Origin: Halobacterium hubeiense
GTDB taxonomy: Archaea; Halobacteriota; Halobacteria; Halobacteriales; Halobacteriaceae
Direction: 5' to 3'
Length of the DNA: 64,000 bases
Assembly (NCBI RefSeq): GCF_001488575.1
Contig: NZ_LN831304.1
Coordinates: 92,626-156,625 of the forward strand
This document shows, piece after piece, positions 14,013-30,296 of the stretch. The translations under genes and the position numbers were made by a program. Under the pieces are notes generated by a model. The model had not been told where the DNA came from, did no database searches, and saw nothing but the letters and a program-made list of their open reading frames with translations. Positions within the stretch are counted from its first letter, which is position 1. Each line of letters begins with the position of its first letter.

Positions 14013-14144
14013 AGTAGATCAATAGGAGTACCCGAGACTACGGGTGCGGGATAAAACCGACACTCGTGAGCCGTCTCACAGTCCATAGCAGGGTTGACTC
14101 GCTACGATTCCTTATTAATACTTTTAATCACAGGTTGTGTTGTG

Positions 14145-15380
14145 ATGTATATGGAGGCCCACCGCACTGTTCCGGTCAAACTCGATGTGACCAAAGAGCA
14201 GGCGGACCTGCTTCACGAGACCATCGACGAGTTTCGGTGGGCCGCCAACTATGTCGTAGATGCTGCGTGGGACGGCGAATGGGCCGAGACCCGCAAGTCA
14301 GTCCTGCACGACCTGACTTACGACGAACTACGCGAGCAGACACGGCTTCACAGCAATCACGTTCAGTCGGCTCGCGACCGTGCCGTTGACGCACTCGAAA
14401 GTGTGGTCGCGAAGTGGTCGAAGGGTGAGTACGCTTCGTTGCCCACGTTCACCTCGCCGTTCGTGGAATATAACCAGCGAAACGCCACATTCCACGACGA
14501 CCACGCCTCGTTATCTACCGTCGAGGGACGCGTCACTGTCAAGTACGTCATTCCCGAGCTAAACCGTGAAACGCCCTTCTCCGAATATCTGCAGAGCAAC
14601 AAGTGGGAGACTACTGGTGCGACACTCCATTATCGCCGTGGCGATTTCTACCTCCACGTCCGAACAAAGGCGGATGTGGACGACCCCGTTCCAGCCGAGA
14701 ACGGAACGGTTCTTGGTGTGGACCTCGGGGTCGAGAACATCGCCGTTACTTCGACTGGCGTGTTCTGGTCTGCCGACGAACTCAACCACTGGCGACAGGA
14801 GTACGTTCAGCGCCGCAAATCGCTCCAAGAGTGTGGCTCGCGGTGGGCCCACGAGAACGTCCAAGCGGTCGGCCGCAAGGAGACGGGGCGCTTTGAGCAG
14901 TATCTTCACCGTGTCGCGAACGAACTCGTAGACGAGGCAGCTGAAAATGGCTGCACAGTGATCGCCTTCGAGAACTTGACGGATATCCGCCATCGGATGC
15001 CCGATGCCCGTAGGTTCCACGAGTGGGCGTTCCGCCGTCTGTACGACTACGTCTCGTACAAGACCGAGGTACGCGGAATCCAGGTTGAGCAAGTGAACCC
15101 GAAGAACACGTCGAGACGGTGTTCATCTTGTGGGTTCACACACGGGGACAACCGCCCGGCACAGGACACATTCTGCTGTCAGTCCTGTGGATACGAGAAC
15201 CACGCGGACTACAACGCAGCGAAGAACATTGGCTATCGACTCCTTCGCAACCAAACTGGCGGCGAAGGAGGCGCACCCGTAGGCGTGCGCCTGAACACCG
15301 GGATGGTGAACGCGAACGGGGTCAAACCCCTGCCGAATTCGGCCAGAGCGGGAGTCCACGGTGAACACCACGGTCCCTAG
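14145..15380 (+). CDS. tnpB: TnpB RNA-guided endonuclease (second family)
   Basis: A 411-residue TnpB. RuvC residues D193 (GVDLGVEN), E276 (AFENLTD) and D355 (HADYNAAKN) are intact, and the zinc ribbon is C326/C329 and C345/C348 with an extra C344. The ATG at 14145 follows the AT-rich TTATTAATACTTTTAAT by about 20 bases, suiting a leaderless mRNA. A hairpin, ACGGTC-CCTA-GACCGT (15370-15385), spans the stop codon and probably marks the right end and RNA scaffold. No tnpA is seen. The element separates two genes that look like one operon on the other strand. Confidence 0.92.
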
Positions 15381-15392
15381 ACCGTAGTGAGC

Positions 15393-16319
15393 TTACTGTG
15401 GTAGTGGCACCTCGTAGTCAGCCGCCAGCTCCTGGAACTCGTCCCACGCCGGGAGCTGCTCGTCATCAACCTCGCCGTACGTCTCGAGGTAGCGCAGCAA
15501 GGCGTCGATTTCGTCTTCGAGGTCGTACTTCACCGCCTGCTCTCGGAGGTCCTCCTCGTCGACGTCGACGTGGCTGAGCAGGAGGAGGCAGTACGAGCGG
15601 TGACGGCTGCCGTTGTCGATGAGCAGGGTGTGACAGCAAAGTTCCGCCGGCGAGACTGCGTCGAGATCCTCGGAGTAGAAGTAGTAGCGATGGCCGGTGA
15701 GCAGGAACTGGAGGTCGAAGGCCGCGAACCGACCGAGGCCGGTTTGGTGGAACGCCTCCGCGTCGACCTCCGTCTCGGCCTGGGCGAGGAATTCGTCGTA
15801 GTCCTCCCAGAGAATCGTGCCCTTCGGGGCAACGGATTCGAGGCGTTGACGATGTAGATGGTGTGCGAGTTCACGGGAAAACTCGTGGAGGCGGTCGAAG
15901 TCGGCGTTGAACTCGTAGTGGCCGTCGGCCGTCCCGACGAGACCACGGTCACGAAAGCGCTTGAGGACGCGGTTGACCGTGTTGCGGTAGTTGTCGCTTC
16001 GGTCGGCGATCTCGGAGACGGTTCGCGGCTGGTTGAAGTAGTACAGCACCTCGAGTGCCTTCCCAGTCAGCAGCTCGGGGAACTCGATGTGGGAGTGCTG
16101 GCGGACGAGGTCCCGATAGAGTTCGACGGCGCGAGCATCCGACGGGACGACTCGTTTTCGCCGGCCATCGCGTTCCGTGTAGACGAGCCCCTTCTCGACG
16201 AGGTCGCCGACGGCACGAGAGAGGTAACTCTTGCTGTGGTTGAGCTTCGTCGCGAGTTCGGAGATCGTGTCGCCGCGGTCGACCGTGGCGAGGACCTCGA
16301 GTTCGATGCGCCGGAGCAC
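15393..16319 (-). CDS. two-HTH transcriptional regulator (AbiEi-like antitoxin candidate)
   Basis: A 308-residue regulator. An N-terminal winged helix (about 15-58, DTISELATKLNHSKSYLSRA) and a second HTH (about 97-132, RTVSEIADRSDNYRNTVNR) are followed by a roughly 170-residue alpha/beta domain. The start is a GTG at 16319, about 22 bases from the TATA box, so the mRNA is probably leaderless. A 50-base near-palindrome around that TATA box suggests autoregulation. It precedes the nucleotidyltransferase gene in what looks like an interrupted operon, in the order of AbiEi and AbiEii. Confidence 0.75.
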   Translation of the reverse strand: MLRRIELEVLATVDRGDTISELATKLNHSKSYLSRAVGDLVEKGLVYTERDGRRKRVVPSDARAVELYRDLVRQHSHIEFPELLTGKALEVLYYFNQPRTVSEIADRSDNYRNTVNRVLKRFRDRGLVGTADGHYEFNADFDRLHEFSRELAHHLHRQRLESVAPKGTILWEDYDEFLAQAETEVDAEAFHQTGLGRFAAFDLQFLLTGHRYYFYSEDLDAVSPAELCCHTLLIDNGSRHRSYCLLLLSHVDVDEEDLREQAVKYDLEDEIDALLRYLETYGEVDDEQLPAWDEFQELAADYEVPLPQ

Positions 16320-16321
16320 AG

Positions 16322-16371
16322 TGTAACACAGTACGAAACTTATATATAAAGGAGTTTCGAGTAGTGTTACA
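16322..16371 (-). promoter_or_regulatory. TATA box inside a 50-base dyad (operator)
   Basis: TGTAACAC (322-329) and CGAAACT (334-340) on one side are mirrored by AGTTTCG (353-359) and GTGTTACA (364-371) on the other. The 12-base centre TATATATAAAGG is the promoter. The 4-base spacer AGTA appears in the same orientation on both sides. A dimer bound here would block TATA-binding protein, so this should be a repressor site of the regulator at 15393-16319. Confidence 0.75.
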
Positions 16372-16403
16372 GACAGAGAGGAACAAGAGCTTGCTCCATC
16401 GTC

Positions 16404-16444
16404 TTAACCAACAAAACTATGGATTCGTGGGTCGTGTTGGTTAA
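16404..16444. repeat. long-spaced inverted repeat, copy B
   Basis: TTAACCAACA (16404-16413) and TGTTGGTTAA (16435-16444) are 21 bases apart. It lies 14 bases before the 107-residue protein gene and about 85 bases from the divergent regulator. Confidence 0.9.
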
Positions 16445-16458
16445 CACGAGAGTAGCCG

Positions 16459-16782
16459 ATGTCCAACGAACCCCCGACCCCACCGGCGAACCTCCCGACT
16501 GAGATCGTCAACACGCTCAATGAAGCAACACCGGAGCATCTTCGGGACGTTGCCAGCTACGCCGAGGCGTTGGCCGAACACAAAGAACGGGAAGCTCGTC
16601 TCGAGGAGGAGGTGGACGACGCCGATGTGAAGGAGCGCCCCGATGACCTCCCAGACGACGTACCGGCGAAGGCGACGATCACGATCAAGGAGATCAACGA
16701 CAACCGCTACTACTACTGGCAGTGGCGGGAAGGCGATTCGGTGACGTCGAAGTACAAAGGGCCGGTGAATCCCGACGAGTAG
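16459..16782 (+). CDS. small haloarchaeal protein, DUF6788-like
   Basis: A 107-residue protein with an acidic helical N terminus (about 1-65) and a C-terminal strand region (INDNRYYYWQWREGDSV, then SKYKGPV). This is the pattern I associate with DUF6788, a family whose members read as a short nucleic-acid-related beta motif. The function is not known. Inverted repeat B overlaps its promoter region, so expression is probably controlled together with the SWIM, SRAP and RecA-like genes. Confidence 0.6.
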   Translation: MSNEPPTPPANLPTEIVNTLNEATPEHLRDVASYAEALAEHKEREARLEEEVDDADVKERPDDLPDDVPAKATITIKEINDNRYYYWQWREGDSVTSKYKGPVNPDE

Positions 16783-16840
16783 ACGAGATGGAACTGTAGC
16801 CTGATGTTCGTTTCAACGTGATTCGTAGCGTAGCAGATGA

Positions 16841-17336
16841 CACCCCCCAGAGTGTGAATGGGATCGGTTTACCCGACACCCCTCGGTGTGAATGGGCTAC
16901 CAACGGGTACTCTCTGACGGGACTTCACGTCGATAGAAGACAGAGCAACACGCGGATAGATTACGCCTCGTTTACCCCCACACCCCTCAGTGTGAATGGT
17001 CTACCACCCAGGGTACCGCGATTAAGAAGTCCTTACCGGCAGAAGTCCTCACGCCGTAGGGAGGGTTCTCGCCTCAGTGGCGAACCTTCGGCTTCGGCAC
17101 AAGGCCTCGCCTTCCAGAATACGCCTACTCGGAGAGCTGTTTAGACTGTAGTATAATAAAGATAACTACAGCTGCGGTGCGGTGCAGTAGCGGGTCGGGT
17201 CAGCTACCGTGGCAGAACGTGTAAGCCGCTCTCCGTGCCGTACTAGGTTCTTCAGACGAACGAGCCTGCTTCCTCGACTCCTGCTCTATCTCTACAACCG
17301 TCGTATCCTATGGGGGACCATTCACACCGAGGGGTG
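16841..17336. other. candidate replication origin with ORB-like repeats
   Basis: Three forward copies of a CACCCCTCGGTGTGAATGG-type repeat (16841-16862, 16877-16896, 16981-16999) and one inverted copy (17318-17336) flank about 320 bases. Copies 2 and 3 are preceded by TTTACCC. Between them lies the AT-rich stretch around 17141-17171. The inverted copy ends 6 bases from the orc1 stop codon. Inverted initiator sites around an AT-rich unwinding region, next to an orc1 gene, are the known layout of haloarchaeal origins. Otherwise there is no gene in this roughly 560-base gap. Confidence 0.75.
17146..17171. repeat. AT-rich inverted repeat, candidate unwinding element
   Basis: CTGTAGT (17146-17152) and ACTACAG (17165-17171) enclose ATAATAAAGATA, the most AT-rich short stretch between the convergent origin repeats. 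It could be the duplex-unwinding element, or part of a small promoter. Confidence 0.45.
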
Positions 17337-17342
17337 GGGGTG

Positions 17343-18611
17343 TCACCATCCCATCAACGTCTGGAGTTCCGGCGTCGAGTTGATCAGTCCAGTTCGTGTA
17401 CTCTCGACGTCTCCTTGGAGCGAATACGACCTGAACTTCCCCTGATCTCCGCCTTCCTTCTTTTTTGATTCGAGAACTCCTGTCGTCACGTGCTTGTTCA
17501 GAAGCTCAAGCGCACGATTGTACCCCTTGGGCTCTACTTCGACGTCCCGTGCTACTGTTTGGTAAACCTCGTGAATCTCTGACGTCCGGAACCATTCTTT
17601 CTCCGGGTTATTTCGGTCAAGACGTGTGAGAGCAAACAGGAGTAATTTCCCGGACAACGGAGTCCCTTTCACCATCTCCATAAAGAGCTCAACTTCGACG
17701 AGTTCGTCAGCTTCGAGAACGTGATTCGCGGTTACGATCTCGTCGCCTTCTTCGTCAGCGATCTCGCCCGCATTCCGGAACAATCGGACTGCGCGTCGAG
17801 CGTCACCGTGTTCTTCAGCTGCGAGTTCAGCTGTGGTTGGAATCACCTCGTCATCGAGGACACCGTCGTAAAATGCGTCCCGCCGATTTTCGAGGATTGC
17901 AATGAGCTGGTCTTCTTCGTACGGCGTGAACGTTCGGTGTTCTGGCTGGAGAGTCGATTGAACCCGTGACTCGATTTCTCCTTTGAATTCGATGTCGTTC
18001 GAAATTCCGATTGTAACGACTGGGAAGTCAACGTCGTCTTTTGATTGTGTCCGTGATAGCGTGTAGAGAACCTCATTGACTTCTCCGTGCTTGTCGATTT
18101 CATCGATGATGACGACAAGACCGCCAGAGAACTCCCTCTGAACAACGGGCCACAATTTCTGGTCGCGATAATGCTCAGCTGAGAGGCCCTGATAGGGGAC
18201 ATCGAGCGGGTTCTCTGCTTTCGCGTTCACCTGCTCTGCGATCTTTCGGAAGGTGGAGGTATACGTAGAGATGGGGTCCGGGTTAATGTAGGCAGTAACG
18301 ATCGGGGAGTCCGTTCCTGCAGTTGCTGCTTCGAGCCGCTCACAGACGTGTCTTGCAACTAGTGTCTTCCCCGTCCCGGTTTCGCCCCACTCCAGGACGT
18401 TATCCGGGACGCTGTTTGTCCGCATCTTCCGGAGATTCTTGGCCAAGAACGTGATATGGTCATCTCGTCCGACGATTCGATTGGCGTCAGGGACGTTATC
18501 GATCTCGAGTAACCATGGCTTCTCAAATATATCCGATACGTTTTCGCTATCTCCCTCGTCGACATTTAATATCTCGTCGACGGTTGTTTGCGTGGAATCG
18601 TTGTTTGGCAT
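17343..18611 (-). CDS. orc1: Orc1/Cdc6 replication initiator
   Basis: A 422-residue AAA+ initiator. Walker A is GETGTGKT (76-83), Walker B is VVIIDEID (146-153), and the sensor-1 region has VVTIGISND. The C-terminal part reads as the DNA-binding winged helix (KGTPLSGKLLLFALTRLD and onward). I chose the ATG at 18611 because the N-terminal extension to 18632 runs into the upstream repeats. Repeats matching those of the origin lie on both sides of the gene, so it probably binds them and controls its own promoter. It is distinct from the second Orc1 at 29268-30296. Confidence 0.93.
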   Translation of the reverse strand: MPNNDSTQTTVDEILNVDEGDSENVSDIFEKPWLLEIDNVPDANRIVGRDDHITFLAKNLRKMRTNSVPDNVLEWGETGTGKTLVARHVCERLEAATAGTDSPIVTAYINPDPISTYTSTFRKIAEQVNAKAENPLDVPYQGLSAEHYRDQKLWPVVQREFSGGLVVIIDEIDKHGEVNEVLYTLSRTQSKDDVDFPVVTIGISNDIEFKGEIESRVQSTLQPEHRTFTPYEEDQLIAILENRRDAFYDGVLDDEVIPTTAELAAEEHGDARRAVRLFRNAGEIADEEGDEIVTANHVLEADELVEVELFMEMVKGTPLSGKLLLFALTRLDRNNPEKEWFRTSEIHEVYQTVARDVEVEPKGYNRALELLNKHVTTGVLESKKKEGGDQGKFRSYSLQGDVESTRTGLINSTPELQTLMGW

Positions 18612-18648
18612 GGGCGGACCAATTCGCCCCATTCACATATAGGTTGCC

Positions 18649-18728
18649 CACCCTCGGTGTGATTGATTCCCCTCCATTCACACTCCGGGGGGTGTTCCAT
18701 AGAGCAAGGCCCCCCAGAGTGTGAATGG
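18649..18728. repeat. ORB-like repeats upstream of orc1
   Basis: A partial forward copy CACCCTCGGTGTGATTG (18649-18665), an inverted copy starting CCATTCACACTCC (18674-18694) and a forward copy ending AGAGTGTGAATGG (18710-18728) lie within 120 bases of the orc1 start. A further half site CCATTCACAT is near 18629. The same sequence family is found on the other side of orc1. They may serve both in replication and in repression of orc1. Confidence 0.75.
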
Positions 18729-18784
18729 AATCAACCTTGTCGCCCACTTGTGGTTTGCTCGCCGCAAGTGACATCTGAGACTAC

Positions 18785-20950
18785 TCATCCGTTCCGGGCT
18801 GCTGTAAACTCCGTCAGCTCTACCTCTCGTGTCTCCGCGAGTCTCCGTCGAATATCTGTACGATCCCACCCCAGCGGCAACAGCACGCTCTCAATCGCTC
18901 GAACCAGCTGCGTCTCGTAGTACGAGGCGTCGTAGGTCTCGACCGCTTCGTGGGCGAGGGCGACCCGGTCTCGCGAGGATTTCTCGTCGTCGACGACTAC
19001 GTACTCGATATCCTGGCCCGGGTGGACTGCCAGTTCCTGCTCGCGAGCTCGTTTCAAGGCCGCCACATTCTGGGTATTCTGCGAGTACCCTTCCAAGGGC
19101 TTGGAGACACGATTCCGCTCGACGAGCTGCTCCACTGCTACGTTGCCCGCCTGCAGCTCGTCGATTGCTCGTTCGAGACGCCCGAGCACCGCGTCCGGTG
19201 ACCGCGTGGCATCGAGCCGGTCGATACAGTCCCGCTGGATGTCCTCGATGAACGGCGGGGTTGAGCGCTGCCGGGCTTCGATGCCTCTGATCTTGAAGTC
19301 GTCGTCGCCGGCGACCTTCCCGAAGTACTTCGTCAGCGCGCCGGCGTCGCTCTCGCGCTGCGGCACGAACGCCACCCAGTCGTAGTGCGCCTCGTGTTCG
19401 AGCCGAATCTCGACGCAGTCGGTGATCTCCGTTGCGAGCGTCTGGAGGTCCTCGCGGTCCTCGTCGTCGACGTCGGGATCCGGGGTCACCCAGATGGAGT
19501 CGACGATGCCGTGGACGACCCGCCAGCCGCCGGCTTCCAGTCGCTGTTTCGCCGTCAGCAGAATCTCGCGAGCGAATGCGTTGATCGCTTCGTGACACTC
19601 GATGCGGCCGAACTTCGCGTTGCTGAACCCCTGATAGCCGAAGCAGGCAACGAGGATCCACTTTAGCGCTCCCGACCGCCCTTCGAGTTCAGCCAGGCGG
19701 TCCTCGTCGGGGTCGTCTCGTTCCTTCTCGCGACGGATGGCCGCCTTGATCTCGTCGCGAGCGTCGATGATCGGCTGGAGCACGTCGACGAGGTAGCCCC
19801 GGTCGTCGCAGATCGAGTACCCGAGGCCGGGGACGTCGTCGCGGTCGCTGTGGCACTCACACCGGATGACGTCCGGCGAAACGTTCCGGGTACAGATGAT
19901 GTTCGGGTACAACGAGGAGAAGTCGAGTTCGTGGACGTTCTCGTGAAGCCCGACCTCGGGTGCGAAGATGAAGCCGCCGCGGTCGGCATCGTGGAGCGTC
20001 CCCATCGACTTGTAGAACTCGTGGCGCCAGGAGTTCCACGGGACGAGGACGCCGCGGTCGTTGGCCTCACAGATTTGGATCGCCGTGAGGACGTTCCCGA
20101 TTGACGCCCACGCGAGCTCCTGGACGGGCTTTTTCGAGCGCGACACGAGGTCGAGGACGCCGTCGAGGTTCGTTTCCCCGTAGAAGAACGTGTTCGATTC
20201 GTCGATGATCGCCCGGCCGGGCACGTTGTACCGTGCCGGGGAGTGACCGACGCGGCCGTAGCTCGAATACGTCGACCGGCTCGCGAGCTGCTGGTAGTCG
20301 ACGTCCGGCCACCGACTCAGCGAGAAGTCGTCGACGCCGGCGTCCGTCGCCATCTCGTACAGGGTCGGGACGATCTCGCTCGTCGAGCAGACCAGGACGT
20401 CCGGATCGTGCGCGTCGAGCGCCCTCTGGACGGCGGTCAGGAGATCCGTCGGCGAGCCGGTAACAGTATCGCCGGCGACGGTCAGCTCGCCGTAGACGTC
20501 GTTGCTCGTTTCGGTCACTGGGACGCTGAGCCGGAGCGTCGACAGCTCACTCGCCGGCGTCGGATCGGCGCCGGTCTCCAGACAGTACCGGAACTCTCGC
20601 GAGAAGTCGACGTTGAAACAGGCGAGATCCCCGACTGGATAGTCCGACAGCTGGCGTGCCTGCCGGGCGAGTGGGGTGACGCGGTCGATGTGGGCGACGT
20701 CGACGGCGAGGACTGGTTCCTCGTCTCGTCGAAAGCCGGGGCGTCGCGCAACCATCTCGGTCGCGACGACATCCGGGTGCTGGTCGTACACTGACTGGAG
20801 TGTCGTGAGGTCGAGGTCGGACGCTGGGTCGCGAGGGGCGACGTAGAATCGCGGTGTGTAGTTATCCCGTTCTGTTGCGACGGCACCGTCGGCGGTCGCC
20901 TCCCACTCCAGGACGCGACCGTCGGTTAGGAAGTCAATTGTGAACGGCAT
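18785..20950 (-). CDS. polB: family B DNA polymerase with degenerate exonuclease domain
   Basis: A 721-residue family B polymerase. Motif A is DFSSLYPN (343-350). Motif B is at K430 in ALKWILVACFGYQGF. Motif C reads HGIVDS (480-485) in place of YGDTDS: the metal-binding D484 is kept but the first Asp is Ile482. The N-terminal exonuclease region lacks the FDIE motif (LRLSVPVT at 139-146) and a clear NxxxFD, so proofreading is probably lost. It is shorter than replicative PolB. The position next to orc1 suggests a role in replication or repair of this replicon. It is transcribed towards orc1. Confidence 0.9.
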   Translation of the reverse strand: MPFTIDFLTDGRVLEWEATADGAVATERDNYTPRFYVAPRDPASDLDLTTLQSVYDQHPDVVATEMVARRPGFRRDEEPVLAVDVAHIDRVTPLARQARQLSDYPVGDLACFNVDFSREFRYCLETGADPTPASELSTLRLSVPVTETSNDVYGELTVAGDTVTGSPTDLLTAVQRALDAHDPDVLVCSTSEIVPTLYEMATDAGVDDFSLSRWPDVDYQQLASRSTYSSYGRVGHSPARYNVPGRAIIDESNTFFYGETNLDGVLDLVSRSKKPVQELAWASIGNVLTAIQICEANDRGVLVPWNSWRHEFYKSMGTLHDADRGGFIFAPEVGLHENVHELDFSSLYPNIICTRNVSPDVIRCECHSDRDDVPGLGYSICDDRGYLVDVLQPIIDARDEIKAAIRREKERDDPDEDRLAELEGRSGALKWILVACFGYQGFSNAKFGRIECHEAINAFAREILLTAKQRLEAGGWRVVHGIVDSIWVTPDPDVDDEDREDLQTLATEITDCVEIRLEHEAHYDWVAFVPQRESDAGALTKYFGKVAGDDDFKIRGIEARQRSTPPFIEDIQRDCIDRLDATRSPDAVLGRLERAIDELQAGNVAVEQLVERNRVSKPLEGYSQNTQNVAALKRAREQELAVHPGQDIEYVVVDDEKSSRDRVALAHEAVETYDASYYETQLVRAIESVLLPLGWDRTDIRRRLAETREVELTEFTAARNG

Positions 20951-21189: not shown

Positions 21190-22530
21190 CTATGCCGATT
21201 CCCTGAGGGCAACATTCCCGTGGTGAACGGTACTCGGGTCTGTGCGCTGTTCTTTAGGACTTTCTTGAGAGCGTGGTGACTCCGACCAGGTGTGGTCGTC
21301 CCACTGGAACCGCACGGGCCGTGCCATCGGCCTGACTGCCTGTTTTGTGTGCCGCTCGAGAAACGTCTCTGACGCGGTTAGGTCGGCGTGCCCCTGGAAC
21401 CCACACGGACAGGTGAGCGTGTCTTGATGCCGCGTCGTTCGGTCAGTCGATCCACACCGTGGACATTCCTGACTCGTCCACGCTTCCGATCTAACCTCGA
21501 CCGAAATCCCGTATTCCTCTGCGGTACACGCTAATCGCTCTGTGAACTTCTTGAACGCCCAGAAGTTGTGGGTCTTGGCGTTGGTTTTGACCGACCAGTG
21601 TGTGTCCAGCACGTCGGTCAACCCGCCGATATACACCGTATCCACGCCCTCGGCGTACAGTCGGTCCAACAGGTCACGACACAGTGCTTCTTGAGCGTGG
21701 TCGCGGCGGCGGGTGCGTTTGCGGTACAGTCGCCGGATACGCTCGCTACTGTACCGGCCTTCCGGGAGCTTGGACTGCAACCGGGCAATCTCTCGTGTCG
21801 TCTCACGGAACCGCTGGAACAATTCGCGGCCTTCGTACAGGTATTGCTCGCCGGTCGTGGTGGTACAGGCGACGAGATTGTTCGCACCGATGTCCAGAGC
21901 GGCCGTTTCATCGGCCAGTGGCGTTGCCCGTGCACTATCAGACACAGTCACGGGTTGGGAAGCTCGGAAGGTGCTTTCAGTCTCGTCGTACCATAGCTCC
22001 AACCGGCCCTGTTTTTCGTAGTCGGGCCAATTCGGGTTACCAGCGATTTCGAGTCGGAGGCGGCCGGTGTGATCGTATCGGTCCTTCAGCTTGCTGCCGA
22101 CCAGAATCTCAAGCCGAGACCGATCGCCCCACTCAGTCGTGTATGCGTCGTTACGAATGACGGTTCTGAGTTGGCGTCCGTCGTCCTCGTTGCCACGGAA
22201 TCCCGGCGGGTTAGGATGTTCCGTAACCGACGTGTTCGACTCGTCGTGGTACTGGTCTTTCAGATGCGAGAAACTGCGCCACGCTTCGCTGTTTTTGCGT
22301 ATCACCTGTTGAGCTGTAGACGCCCCGAGCACGCCTTTGTATCGGCCTTCGAGTCGGCCGGTATCGGCGTCCCATATGCCGCCTTCGAAGCCGTCCTCGT
22401 CGTTGTACCGCATAAGGCGTTGGTAGTTAACTTCGTTCCAGAGGGCGGCAGAAGCGTCCAACAGGTCCCGTAACAGTTGCTCTCCGGTCTCGGAGAGCGG
22501 TCGCACGGCGAACGTGTTGGTGCGCTTCAT
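21190..22530 (-). CDS. tnpB: TnpB-family protein lacking the RuvC glutamate
   Basis: A 446-residue TnpB of a third family. RuvC D213 (ALDIGANN) and D383 (HADLTASE) are present, but the position of the catalytic Glu is Gly302 in [10 protein letters not shown]. The zinc ribbon is C356/C359 and C374/C376, the second pair a shortened CPC. Either the acidic residue comes from elsewhere in this clade or the nuclease is dead. No tnpA is present. The element interrupts a polymerase relic and is followed by a tandem duplication at 22589-22664. Confidence 0.88.
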
Positions 22531-22960: not shown

Positions 22961-23200
22961 TCAGACGAACGCATCCATCTCGCTTAGCAAGGTTCGCTCA
23001 GTCTGCTGGACCGACATCGAGACTGAGTTCGCCAATTCATCGTTGACCCGTGCTTCGAGATTTGACGGCGGTGCTCGCCCGTCCGTATTGAGGAAGATAC
23101 GGGAGCCGATATCTGCGTCAAACCCGACGACCGTCAGTTGGTCGTCGACTGCGAAGCCGGTTGTCTCGATGTCGAACGCAACGGTATCGAGTCCCGTCAT
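22961..23200 (-). pseudogene. truncated DEDD exonuclease
   Basis: Only the first 79 residues of an RNase H-like 3'-5' exonuclease remain, including the AFDIETTGF motif (D and E ligands). They are closely related to the intact 214-residue protein at 24753-25397. The later exonuclease motifs are missing, so it cannot be active. It overlaps the upstream coiled-coil fragment by 4 bases, as its intact paralogue does, showing that a whole gene pair was duplicated. Confidence 0.8.
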
Positions 23201-23496
23201 TTCGTGGCTCCATACTGGTGGTGTTCCCGCTCGTGGCTCGCTTCCCGTTGTTCGAGTCCCCGTTCGAGCTCTTCGAGGCGTTCCTCGTGGTCCTCGAGGC
23301 GAGCCTCCTGTTCGAGATCGATGCTGAGCAGCGCCGGCAGCAGCGGGTTCTGGTGGTTCAACAGCCCGCTCGCGTCGGTATGCGCGCGGGCGTACTCGAA
23401 CAGCCGGTCAAAGCGTGGCTGGTCGCGACGCCGCCGTCGGCAGCTTCCCACCCCAGGACGCGACCATCGTCCAGAAGTCGATAGTATACTACCCAT
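23197..23496 (-). pseudogene. chimera of polB start and coiled-coil gene end
   Basis: The last 70 or so codons match the paralogue at 25394-25714 (RDQPRFDRLFEYAR onward, then a Glu/Arg coiled coil). The first 25 codons do not match it. Read in another frame they encode LLDDGRVLGWEAADGGV, which matches residues 7-24 of the polymerase. The junction falls at a CGCGACC shared by both genes, so short-homology recombination joined them. Whether the 99-codon open frame is expressed is unknown. Confidence 0.75.
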
Positions 23497-24752: not shown

Positions 24753-25397
24753 TCAAGCGATAGGCTCCAGCGATTTCATCGAGAAATCCGACTTCGAGCA
24801 ATACCGTTCTGCAAGCTCCATCAACGCTCGAGTCCGTCGAATATCGGCGACGTTGTGAGTGATGAGTGGCTCGTAGGCGCCATCCTTCCAAGCGGTGACT
24901 GCCTCGCTACTGTCGGTAAATGGATCCAGATCGTTCAATTCGGAGCCGATCAGTTCCTCGTAGACGCCACTCAGCGTGTCTTCACTCGTATTGAACCGTG
25001 TTTCGAAGACGTCCATTACGTCGACGTATGGCAACGTGCCAAAGGGCCACTCGAGCCCGTGCGTACAGAGCCGTGTGCGAAGGAACGGGAGGTCGAATCC
25101 TCCGTTCCACCGCTCACCGTTGTACGCAACGAGCTTTGCATCATGTTGGGTGAGTGTCGATGTGACAAACGTCGCCAGTTCGTTCAGGAGTTCCTGTTCG
25201 CTGTCGTGGAGTGAGAGCTGTACCGGTGTCTGGAGGGCGTCGTTGAGCCGATCTGCGAGGCCTGTTTGTGGTGCCGTTCCGGTATGGAGAAACACTCGCG
25301 ACGAGACCGCGGAGTCGAACCCAACTACTGTGAGTTCATCATCGGCCTGAAATCCCGTCGTTTCGATATCGAATGCAATCGTCGTCAACTCAGTCAT
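24753..25397 (-). CDS. RNase H-like DEDD 3'-5' exonuclease (YprB type)
   Basis: A 214-residue exonuclease domain. ExoI is FDIET (D10, E12), ExoII is YNGERWNGGFDLPFL (D102) and ExoIII is THNVADIRRT (D185). All four acidic ligands are present, and the fold matches YprB-type RNase H-like proteins. It is last in an operon with the coiled-coil protein (4-base overlap) and the RecA-like protein. Because the nearby polymerase has lost its exonuclease motifs, this enzyme might supply proofreading or end trimming; that is inference. Confidence 0.83.
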   Translation of the reverse strand: MTELTTIAFDIETTGFQADDELTVVGFDSAVSSRVFLHTGTAPQTGLADRLNDALQTPVQLSLHDSEQELLNELATFVTSTLTQHDAKLVAYNGERWNGGFDLPFLRTRLCTHGLEWPFGTLPYVDVMDVFETRFNTSEDTLSGVYEELIGSELNDLDPFTDSSEAVTAWKDGAYEPLITHNVADIRRTRALMELAERYCSKSDFSMKSLEPIA

Positions 25398-25714
25398 TCT
25401 ACACCTCCAGTGGTACCTTCGGCGGGCGATTGCTGCTGTTCGCCCCCGGTTTCCGAAAGCCGTTGCTCAAGCTCTGATAGGCGCTCTTCGTGGTCGTCGA
25501 GGCGGGACTCCTGTTCGAGATCGATGCTGAGCAGCGCCGGCAGCAGCGGGTTCTGGTGGTTCAACAGCCCGCTCGCGTCGGCGTGCTCGCGGGCGTACTC
25601 GAACAGCCGGTCGAAGCGCGGCTGGTCGCGACGCCGCAGTGCCCGGCGGAACTCTGCCCAGCGCTCTTCGATGGCCCGCAGCGCATCTCGGTAGGTTGGG
25701 TTCGTACGCCCCAT
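25394..25714 (-). CDS. small coiled-coil protein of the replication operon
   Basis: A 106-residue protein. The N-terminal half is basic and helical (ALRAIEERWAEFRRALRRRDQPRFDRLFEYAR). A conserved GLLNHQNPLLPALLSIDLEQE follows, then a coiled coil with heptad-like Glu/Leu/Arg (about 72-95). I chose the ATG at 25714 because it follows the RecA-like stop by 2 bases and leaves the conserved MGRTNPTYRDAL start. I do not recognise a named family. A fragment paralogue is at 23197. Being locked between RecA-like and exonuclease genes suggests a structural adaptor role. Confidence 0.72.
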   Translation of the reverse strand: MGRTNPTYRDALRAIEERWAEFRRALRRRDQPRFDRLFEYAREHADASGLLNHQNPLLPALLSIDLEQESRLDDHEERLSELEQRLSETGGEQQQSPAEGTTGGVE

Positions 25715-25716
25715 CG

Positions 25717-26661
25717 CTATCGTCCTCCTGCCCCGGTTGCGGTCCACGCATCGAGCAGGGGATCCGCGGTGGCCGCGACCGTCTCACCGTCAGCGGTGAC
25801 GCCGGTTCCGACGCTCTCCGGAGTCGGCGTCGACGGCGTCGGCGTCGTCGGTTCCACGCCAACCTGCGTGGCGCGTGCCGCGAGCAGCTGACGCCAGTAC
25901 GTGAACGTCGTCTGGTAGTACGCGCCGTCGTCGACGGGATAGACGAGCGTCTCGAAGTCCTCGCCGACGACCCGTGGTCCCATCCGGGTCTGCTCGCATT
26001 CCAGGTGGTGGTCGGCGGCCGTCGCGACCGGCACCGTGAAGTCGTCGCGCTGCGCCCGGGTGACGAGCACCGGGATGTCGTACCCCTCGGCGTAGGTCGC
26101 TAGCCGGGCGAGGGTTCGGGCTTGGAGGGTTTTCGCGTGAGTCTCGCCGAGGGTATCGTCGGCGCGGTACTGGGCGTCGACGGCCGGCGCGACGAGGAGG
26201 GCGGGCGTGTGGGGTGACGTGTCCTCGTCGCGACCTAGTGCCCGTCGACTGGCTGTCCCGATATCGGCGGTAGACATCTGGATCGACTTGTTCACTGCCG
26301 TCTGGAGATCACAGACGGCGCCGTAGTGCTGGTAGGCGGTGAATCCGCGGGCGACGTGAATTCGGTTGAGCAACCGTTGACTGGGCGCGATCTGGGCGAG
26401 TGTCGTTGTCGTCGCGTGACCATTTGCGTCGACCCAGAAGGCGGGCCCGTCGTGCAGGAGGAGATGGTCGAGTACGAGCGACTGCAGGATTGGGACGCCA
26501 CGGCCTCCCTCGACGTCGAGCAGCGTGATTCCGTCGCCGAGTGACGGCAACAACATCTCGTCCGTAGACGGATCGGCCTGATCAGCAAGGGACCGATTGC
26601 GGTCAGCTCCCCGTGTCGGCTGGTCCACCGCCAATCGGTTCGGCGTTGAGTGTTCTCCCAT
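25717..26661 (-). CDS. RecA/RadA-fold protein without Walker A lysine
   Basis: A 314-residue protein whose order of strands resembles the RecA/RadA core. The P-loop position reads EGGRGVPILQ with no GKT/S. WVDANGHA stands where RadA has its YIDTE strand, followed by LNRIHVARGFTAYQHY, which is strongly RadA-like. ALLVAPAVDAQYR stands in place of Walker B. The C-terminal 45 residues are low in complexity (TPTPSTPTPES). It therefore probably does not hydrolyse ATP and may act as a recombinase mediator. It is first in an operon with the coiled-coil and exonuclease genes, downstream of inverted repeat D. Confidence 0.65.
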   Translation of the reverse strand: MGEHSTPNRLAVDQPTRGADRNRSLADQADPSTDEMLLPSLGDGITLLDVEGGRGVPILQSLVLDHLLLHDGPAFWVDANGHATTTTLAQIAPSQRLLNRIHVARGFTAYQHYGAVCDLQTAVNKSIQMSTADIGTASRRALGRDEDTSPHTPALLVAPAVDAQYRADDTLGETHAKTLQARTLARLATYAEGYDIPVLVTRAQRDDFTVPVATAADHHLECEQTRMGPRVVGEDFETLVYPVDDGAYYQTTFTYWRQLLAARATQVGVEPTTPTPSTPTPESVGTGVTADGETVAATADPLLDAWTATGAGGR

Positions 26662-29267: not shown

Positions 29268-30296
29268 TCACTGCATCGGTGACGCCGCCGCTGAATCGAC
29301 GAGCGAGTATTCTCGGTCCCGACTCGTCCCTTCCGCCTCGAGAAGGTTGTACTGCTCCATCTTCGAGAGGTACGTGCGGATAGTCCGCTTCGTCCGCGGA
29401 TCATCGACGTCCTCGGAATATCGCTCGTGGATTTCGCTCGGCCCGACCGGGCCGTGCTCGCGAACGATGTCGTAGACGACGCGCTGGTGCGGCGTGAGCG
29501 AGTCGAGGCTCTTCTGCTTGATTTGGGCCCGAGCATCCTCGGCGGCGTCCAAGAGAATATCGTCGGTGATGCGCTCGTGGTTCTCGCGATCGGCCTTGCC
29601 GGCGGCCGTTCGGAGGATGCCGATTGCGAGGCGGGCGTCGCCGGCGGCCGCGTCGGCGATCCGGTAGAGCTGGTCGTCGGTGATGACGTCCTCGTCGAGC
29701 CCCCACTTTGCCCGAGCACTCAGGATGTCGTACAGCTGCTCGTCGTGGTACTTGTCCATCCGGACGTGTTCGCTGGAGCGCAGTCGGCTCACGAGGCGGT
29801 CGTCGACGCGGCTGAACAGCTCCTCTTCCTTGTTCGCGATGCAGATGATCGCGAACTGCGGGAGGCTGTGGAGGTCGTAGATGACGCTGGGGTCTTCGAG
29901 CTGGTCGACCTCGTCGAGGATGACGACGGTTCGCGGGCCGTCATGCTGCTGGAGGCGATCGACGAGTTCGTCGTGGGGCGTCGACTGCCGGTGGATGTCG
30001 ATGGTCGCGCCGAGCTCGTCGAGGATCTGGTAGAGCGTCCGGAACCGGGTGTAGTTGCGCCAGCAGTTGACGTAGGTGGTCTCGACATCGAGGACCTCTT
30101 CCCGGAGTCGTTCGGTGACGAATTGCGAGATGCACGTCTTGCCGGCGCCGCTGGGTCCGGTGACAATAGCGGTATCGGCGGGTTCGCCGTTCGTGATTGG
30201 CTCGAGGACACTGGAGAGGTGGTTGACTTCGGCGTCGCGATGCTCAACTTCCCGAGGAACGAACCTGGCCCGGAGGACGCGAGCATCGCGAATCAT
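29268..30296 (-). CDS. orc1: second Orc1/Cdc6-type AAA+ protein
   Basis: A 342-residue Orc1/Cdc6. Walker A is GPSGAGKT (47-54), Walker B is VVILDEVDQ (about 120-128), and the sensor-1 stretch is FAIICIANK. The sensor-2 arginine is in GDARLAIGIL. A winged helix at about 270-330 (LTPHQRVVYDIVREHGPVGPSEI) should bind DNA. It is shorter than the first Orc1 and has a different flanking repeat (TTCCGGAAAC, 30348-30453). It could start replication at another origin or act as a regulator. Confidence 0.92.
   Translation of the reverse strand: MIRDARVLRARFVPREVEHRDAEVNHLSSVLEPITNGEPADTAIVTGPSGAGKTCISQFVTERLREEVLDVETTYVNCWRNYTRFRTLYQILDELGATIDIHRQSTPHDELVDRLQQHDGPRTVVILDEVDQLEDPSVIYDLHSLPQFAIICIANKEEELFSRVDDRLVSRLRSSEHVRMDKYHDEQLYDILSARAKWGLDEDVITDDQLYRIADAAAGDARLAIGILRTAAGKADRENHERITDDILLDAAEDARAQIKQKSLDSLTPHQRVVYDIVREHGPVGPSEIHERYSEDVDDPRTKRTIRTYLSKMEQYNLLEAEGTSRDREYSLVDSAAASPMQ

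Follow-up and report, generated by a model that had tools for sequence, protein, structure and literature searches.

The window analyzed here, a stretch of 64,000 nucleotides from contig C3 of Halobacterium hubeiense, contains an orc1/cdc6 initiator gene flanked on both sides by copies of one repeat. This arrangement raises the question of whether the locus is a replication origin and, if so, how it relates to the other origins of haloarchaeal plasmids. Comparison with related plasmids makes it highly probable that the region at 16783..18845 is a replication origin of C3 housed in an exchangeable cassette of an Orc and its boxes, which has been replaced by recombination.

The orc gene, its boxes, and the AT-rich core

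The orc gene (17343..18611, minus strand) is predicted to encode an initiator of 422 aa with an AAA+ domain and a C-terminal winged helix. Translation likely starts at 18611, not at 18632, in agreement with the annotation of a close relative. In a profile search the protein matched TIGR02928 (E value of 8e-124), Cdc6_lid, and Cdc6_C, all above their cut-offs; with these domains and a length above 300 aa, it is the kind of Orc1/Cdc6 protein expected beside a haloarchaeal origin. The nearest solved structures are 2v1u and 2qby. Other Orcs of the same genome are at most 37% identical to it. The locus was rejected as oriC1, the universal haloarchaeal chromosomal origin, whose Orc every haloarchaeal genome carries: the window's Orc, found in only 23 of 392 genomes, falls short of 80% identity to it.

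Six exact copies of CCNNNGTGTGAATGG flank orc (16847+, 16881+, 16985+, 17318-17332-, 18674-18688-, and 18714+). The number expected per window was 0.02 in dinucleotide shuffles, none of 100 of which reached six. There are seven exact occurrences in the 3.13-Mb genome, six of them at the orc locus, and on the 157,757-bp contig C3 the box core GTGTGAATGG occurs at the orc locus only. Together with a one-mismatch copy (18629-18643, minus strand) and a two-mismatch copy (18652-18666, plus strand), these bear out the count in the earlier note of seven repeats and a half site around the gene. Downstream of orc are ORB-type box 1 (CCCCCCAGAGTGTGAATGG; 16843..16861, plus strand), box 2 (16877..16895, plus strand), the inner box 3 with a G-string (ACCCCCACACCCCTCAGTGTGAATGG; 16974..16999, plus strand), and the inner box 4, also with a G-string (17318..17343, minus strand), which is inverted relative to box 3 and overlaps the orc stop codon. 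Upstream are box 5 (18674..18693, minus strand), box 6 (18710..18728, plus strand), and the two imperfect copies, of which the one-mismatch variant, CCTATATGTGAATGG, lies over the likely TATA box of orc. Boxes 1 to 6 all have the exact motif at positions conserved in relatives. A long open reading frame across the 3' boxes (16818-17144) was rejected as a gene because it is made of box DNA.

The inner inverted pair, CCCCCACACCCCTCAGTGTGAATGG and CCCCCACCCCTCGGTGTGAATGG, bears the halophile G-string at the ORB ends (CCCCCACACCCC and CCCCCACCCC). Thus, the boxes are ordinary haloarchaeal ORBs, and the statement that the repeat is unlike G-tract boxes was wrong for this pair. As expected of an origin, at least two inverted ORB-like repeats are present in the intergenic region adjoining orc, and between them is an AT-rich element (17139..17172), the presumed unwinding site, located from the alignment of relatives and from AT content. 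The element is 77% AT over 30 bp, and only 0.08% of the 30-mers on C3 are equally AT rich; it is conserved in relatives as roughly TATAATAAAGATAAC. The dyad that the earlier note placed within the 3' boxes (17146-17171) is indeed AT rich, and the AT richness is conserved, but several relatives (L011, L020, and L046) no longer show its symmetry. The symmetry is therefore considered incidental, and a functional palindrome was rejected. The accompanying proposal of inverted boxes around an unwinding site holds, with the inner G-string pair framing the conserved AT-rich core.

The box layout is kept across approximately 24 distinct relatives from many genera whose Orcs are at least 93% identical to that of the window. 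In these relatives the four 3' boxes and the three main 5' boxes hold their positions, except where a single box has been lost or added or a contig ends, and the start-to-start distance of the inner pair is 333 bp in most. The layout is constant among relatives down to 82% Orc identity; L202, with an Orc that is 69% identical, lacks boxes of the window's type. The diversity of native boxes is 0.013, six-fold lower than the 0.077 of the spacers (ratio of 0.17; P of 0.009).

The variant box at 18629-18643 overlaps CCTATATG, approximately 29 nt upstream of the ATG at 18611 and plausibly the TATA box of the orc promoter. The overlap is kept in nearly all relatives in which the 5' side is present, even at Orc identities of 82-84%, and presumably provides for autoregulation of orc.

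Cassette types in a slot between two conserved genes

The left border of the slot is a conserved gene for a 107-aa protein (16459..16782, plus strand), which is present in 263 of 392 haloarchaeal genomes and whose product had no Pfam or NCBIfam match. The right border is a PolB2-like family B DNA polymerase gene (18785..20950, minus strand; NF004418 above the cut-off, PF00136). The polymerase retains motif A (DFSSLYP), and its motif C reads HGIVDS, without the first Asp of the usual family B motif, YGDTDS. Comparison by blastn with slots of other Orc types placed the exchangeable cassette between these genes at 16783..18845, its right border being inside the 3' end of polB, where similarity between types begins at 18825-18861 in fully swapped examples. 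A 4.6-kb region matched 143 plasmids, in many of them over the flanks only, and slots of other Orc types have collinear flanks that are 74-95% identical to those of the window around an unrelated middle. For example, Halorussus vallis is 92% identical to the window over 15398-16896 and 18846-20950 and has a different orc, on the opposite strand, in between. When loci were collected by searching with the 107-aa protein alone, a sample blind to orc, 86 loci had polB downstream, and an orc was in between in 85 of them.

Among 72 slots in a first set there were nine Orc types, with identities of 28-55% between types and at least 86% within types; a larger set added a few rare types. The Orc of the window is designated type B. 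Comparison with more than 100 relatives showed the whole module of orc and boxes at one fixed place between the two conserved genes. The box cores of six types (A to E and G) accompany their own Orc and have 0 to 4 matches each in 566 kb of flanking DNA. In each of types A to G, two inverted G-string boxes 316-378 bp apart enclose an AT-rich stretch (in the window and L046 the pair-finding algorithm took box 2, not box 3, as the left arm). The pair is 3' of orc in types B and F and 5' of orc in the other types. These alignments demonstrate, at the level of sequence, that orc and its boxes form one inherited cassette, each common Orc type having boxes of its own.

Several other features of these neighborhoods were observed. 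Each contig of the window's genome has one copy of the 107-aa gene (C1:182866, C2:208725, C3:109084, and C4:105857), 47-100% identical to that of the window, and the copies on C2, C3, and C4 have an orc within approximately 8 kb. The polB genes beside type D cassettes are often fragments (e.g., L085, L091, L100, and L101), and those beside types A, B, and C are mostly intact. The C-terminal tail of PolB differs by Orc type, yet a short hydrophobic-x-x-aromatic motif, similar to a clamp-binding peptide, is retained in it. TnpB-like transposon genes are located on either side of the orc-polB region (14094-15380 and 21190-22530). Two small acidic proteins (23197-23496 and 25394-25747) without a Pfam match are alike, sharing PALLSIDLEQE, and may have arisen by duplication of the small gene commonly found with polB.

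The polymerase gene is linked to Orc type only near the slot. On a polB tree made only from sequence more than 600 bp from the slot, a quick tree with many weak branches, there were 30 changes of orc type, compared with 31.3 for shuffled labels. The ratio of within-type to between-type polB divergence was 0.29 in the first 100 bp beside the slot and approximately 1 beyond 1.2 kb; linkage with Orc type was significant to about 500-700 bp (P of 0.001 out to about 500 bp), and the final 20 or so residues of PolB group according to Orc type. Linkage on the side of the 107-aa gene is weaker, with ratios of 0.5-0.85. Because Orc type is linked to the last 0.5 kb or so of polB and not to the distal polB tree, homologous crossovers within polB are indicated. 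In types A, B, and C, the DNA of orc shows less divergence than distal polB, so that these cassettes must have spread after the backbones had diverged; in type E, orc is the more diverged of the two. Taken as a sequence record, these patterns show that cassettes were repeatedly replaced by recombination across haloarchaeal plasmids, with crossovers in the last part of polB.

Fossil boxes beside the 107-aa gene

Boxes of a foreign type are present in many type C and D slots, in one type E slot, and in some type A slots, essentially only beside the 107-aa gene. The order of these fossils is fixed. Boxes of the window's type (B) are outermost, followed by type A boxes and then by the current cassette; the fossils in type A slots are of type B. 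In L042, L167, L171, and L156 two older origin types are stacked in order beside the 107-aa gene. Fossils of type A, C, D, E, or G were found in none of the 18 type B slots, and the window's type is therefore the oldest layer of this record.

After the fossil boxes of the window's type is a scar, GGGTCCGGTCAACCCGGACGAGTAA, that matches the 3' end of the 107-aa gene in native type A slots (GGGTCCGGTCAACCCGGCCGAGTAA), not that of the host slot (GGGCCGGTGAATCCCGACGAGTAG in L040). We read this scar as a fragment of a type A donor joined at GGG to the second box of the recipient. On the side of the slot opposite polB, the aligned sequences show that at least one event involved a short-homology join within the box array. 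Box 2 is missing from some slots, probably because of deletion between direct repeats.

It is conceivable, but unlikely, that the fossil boxes are retained as sites through which an older plasmid's Orc works on the newer origin or is titrated by it. Diversity is somewhat lower in fossil boxes than in their spacers (ratios of 0.37 and 0.42), as retention would suggest, but the difference is not significant (P of 0.08 and 0.10), and the constraint on native boxes is stronger (0.17). Furthermore, several fossil boxes have been mutated, deleted between direct repeats, or wholly lost (L091, L099, L151, and L047). We prefer to read the fossil boxes as a record of the sequence in which origins succeeded each other.

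Predicted origin activity, possible incompatibility switching, and known systems

The reading of the locus as a replication origin, already made in the earlier note, is supported by the cognate orc, by the inverted G-string boxes with their AT-rich core, and by a layout kept in all close relatives, as well as by boxes that are far more conserved than the spacers and by the switch to another box family with every change of Orc. In the proposed mechanism, Orc would bind its own boxes, of which the inner pair (16974-16999 and 17318-17343) frames approximately 320 bp, and binding to the inner pair would open the strands at the AT-rich site (17139-17172). The outer boxes and the 5' set, including the one over the orc TATA box, would most likely tune the supply of Orc through autorepression and titration. 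Origin activity and autoregulation of the window's cassette are predicted from its sequence features; by analogy with the genetics of Haloarcula hispanica (PMC3936714), the origin would be expected to require its own Orc, the second box set to act by titration, and like origins to be incompatible.

A distinctly improbable alternative is that the boxes are regulatory only, serving self-repression and titration of Orc, and that C3 replicates from elsewhere, with the slot as a dormant or accessory origin. The overlap of one box with the orc TATA box would be consistent with this, as would the deletion of orc4 from the equivalent slot of pNRC200 (PMC1906834), the two predicted origins of H. hispanica chromosome II that had no ARS activity (PMC3528665), and the presence of a second Orc-like gene on C3. 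Over the whole of C3, GC skew and keto skew are nearly monotonic and give no clear origin signal. The second Orc-like gene (29268-30296, minus strand) encodes a shorter protein of 342 aa with a Cdc6 lid domain; it has no ORB-type repeats around it and was rejected as an alternative C3 origin, and C3 has no further cluster of boxes of the common slot types. Moreover, an inverted G-string pair with a conserved AT-rich core, present in seven unrelated cassette types, is the anatomy of an origin, not of a promoter. Because orc4 and polB2 of the NRC-1 slot are both dispensable (PMC1906834), a replicon may have other origins besides the one in its slot.

It is very doubtful that no cassette exchange took place and that the 107-aa gene and polB, separately mobile or frequently recombining, ended beside different orcs. 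Both genes are indeed found on many replicons, frequently in more than one copy per genome, and some 107-aa loci lack polB. However, the two flanks keep the same order and a similar degree of conservation around different middles, in several plasmids together with genes farther out than the slot; fossil boxes and a donor scar lie inside the slot in a fixed order; and linkage to Orc type decays with distance into polB.

The gain from exchanging cassettes would plausibly be a changed incompatibility type. In bacterial plasmids, replicon exchange is a classic way to change incompatibility; no archaeal example was found in open-licence PMC papers. For types A to D in 392 genomes, the pairs on different contigs comprised 1 of the same type and 11 of different types, a deficit with a P of 0.004 under naive independent placement that was not significant in a shuffle test (P of 0.12). 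The one same-type exception, in G065, has full box sets at both copies. The exclusion of like cassettes from one cell, expected if cassettes set incompatibility, is suggestive only. Tentatively, and with more doubt than confidence, we propose that the slot is an incompatibility-switching locus at which plasmids of one widespread haloarchaeal backbone escape competition with resident relatives by whole-cassette exchange, mainly via homologous recombination in polB2, and that the conserved polB2-orc linkage exists because polB2 acts as the recombination arm.

Like the haloarchaeal orc/cdc6 origins of Wu et al. (2012, PMC3528665), the locus has intergenic G-string ORBs beside orc, an inverted pair around an AT-rich site, and Orc-specific boxes. 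ORBs downstream of orc genes or on both sides of them are already reported in that study, and the earlier suggestion that a 3' origin is unusual was thus only partly right. General recruitment and translocation of origins were inferred in PMC3528665, which has no fixed slot, cassette exchange on one backbone, or fossil boxes. On pNG600 of H. marismortui, one of two orc genes is listed as origin associated, by prediction (PMC3528665); the polB-linked orc of this plasmid (L046) is of the window's type.

The oriC2-cdc6E locus of Haloarcula hispanica (PMC3936714) also has boxes on both sides of orc, and in the window a box array is present at 18629-18728, across orc from the predicted origin. In oriC2-cdc6E, however, the origin is upstream and a titrating array of 11 ORBs is downstream, whereas in the window it is the G-string pair and AT-rich site that lie downstream, with a smaller set upstream, at the promoter. 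The downstream array of oriC2 restrains the origin, and a plasmid bearing the origin is incompatible with the resident origin (PMC3936714).

The polB2-orc pairs of pNRC200 and pNG600 (Berquist et al. 2007, PMC1906834) are exactly the window's locus; their linkage was described as conserved, its function unexplained. The linked orcs belong to different cassette types, the orc4 type in pNRC200 and the window's type in pNG600, which differ in boxes and orientation. A truncated Orc of the window's type (residues 260-429, ~96% identical) is present in Halobacterium salinarum on pNRC200 (159225-159734) and sister plasmids (H58-H67), well away from the polB slot, where pNRC200 has its orc4-type cassette. 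The truncated gene is possibly the one named orc3 in NRC-1. The neighborhood of PolB2, arCOG07300, and a RadA-like gene (Makarova et al. 2014, PMC4104785) is alike in its PolB2-like polymerase with a degenerate motif C (HGIVDS) and in the two small genes adjoining in relatives. An arORC gene is often nearby (PMC4104785), but orc exchange is not described for it.

Taken alone, the probable origin in the window would be a further, rather typical haloarchaeal plasmid origin. The combination of a fixed slot, exchangeable cassettes, and fossils appears to be undescribed, and open-licence PMC papers yielded no prior description of origin or cassette exchange, or of a fixed slot with fossils, in haloarchaeal plasmids. 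What is exchanged is an Orc1/Cdc6 gene together with the boxes that belong to it, in a slot shared by plasmids throughout the haloarchaea. At least seven matched pairs of Orc and box in near-constant surroundings are suited to studying how initiators recognize their boxes, and the cassette slot offers an explanation for the linkage of polB2 and orc.
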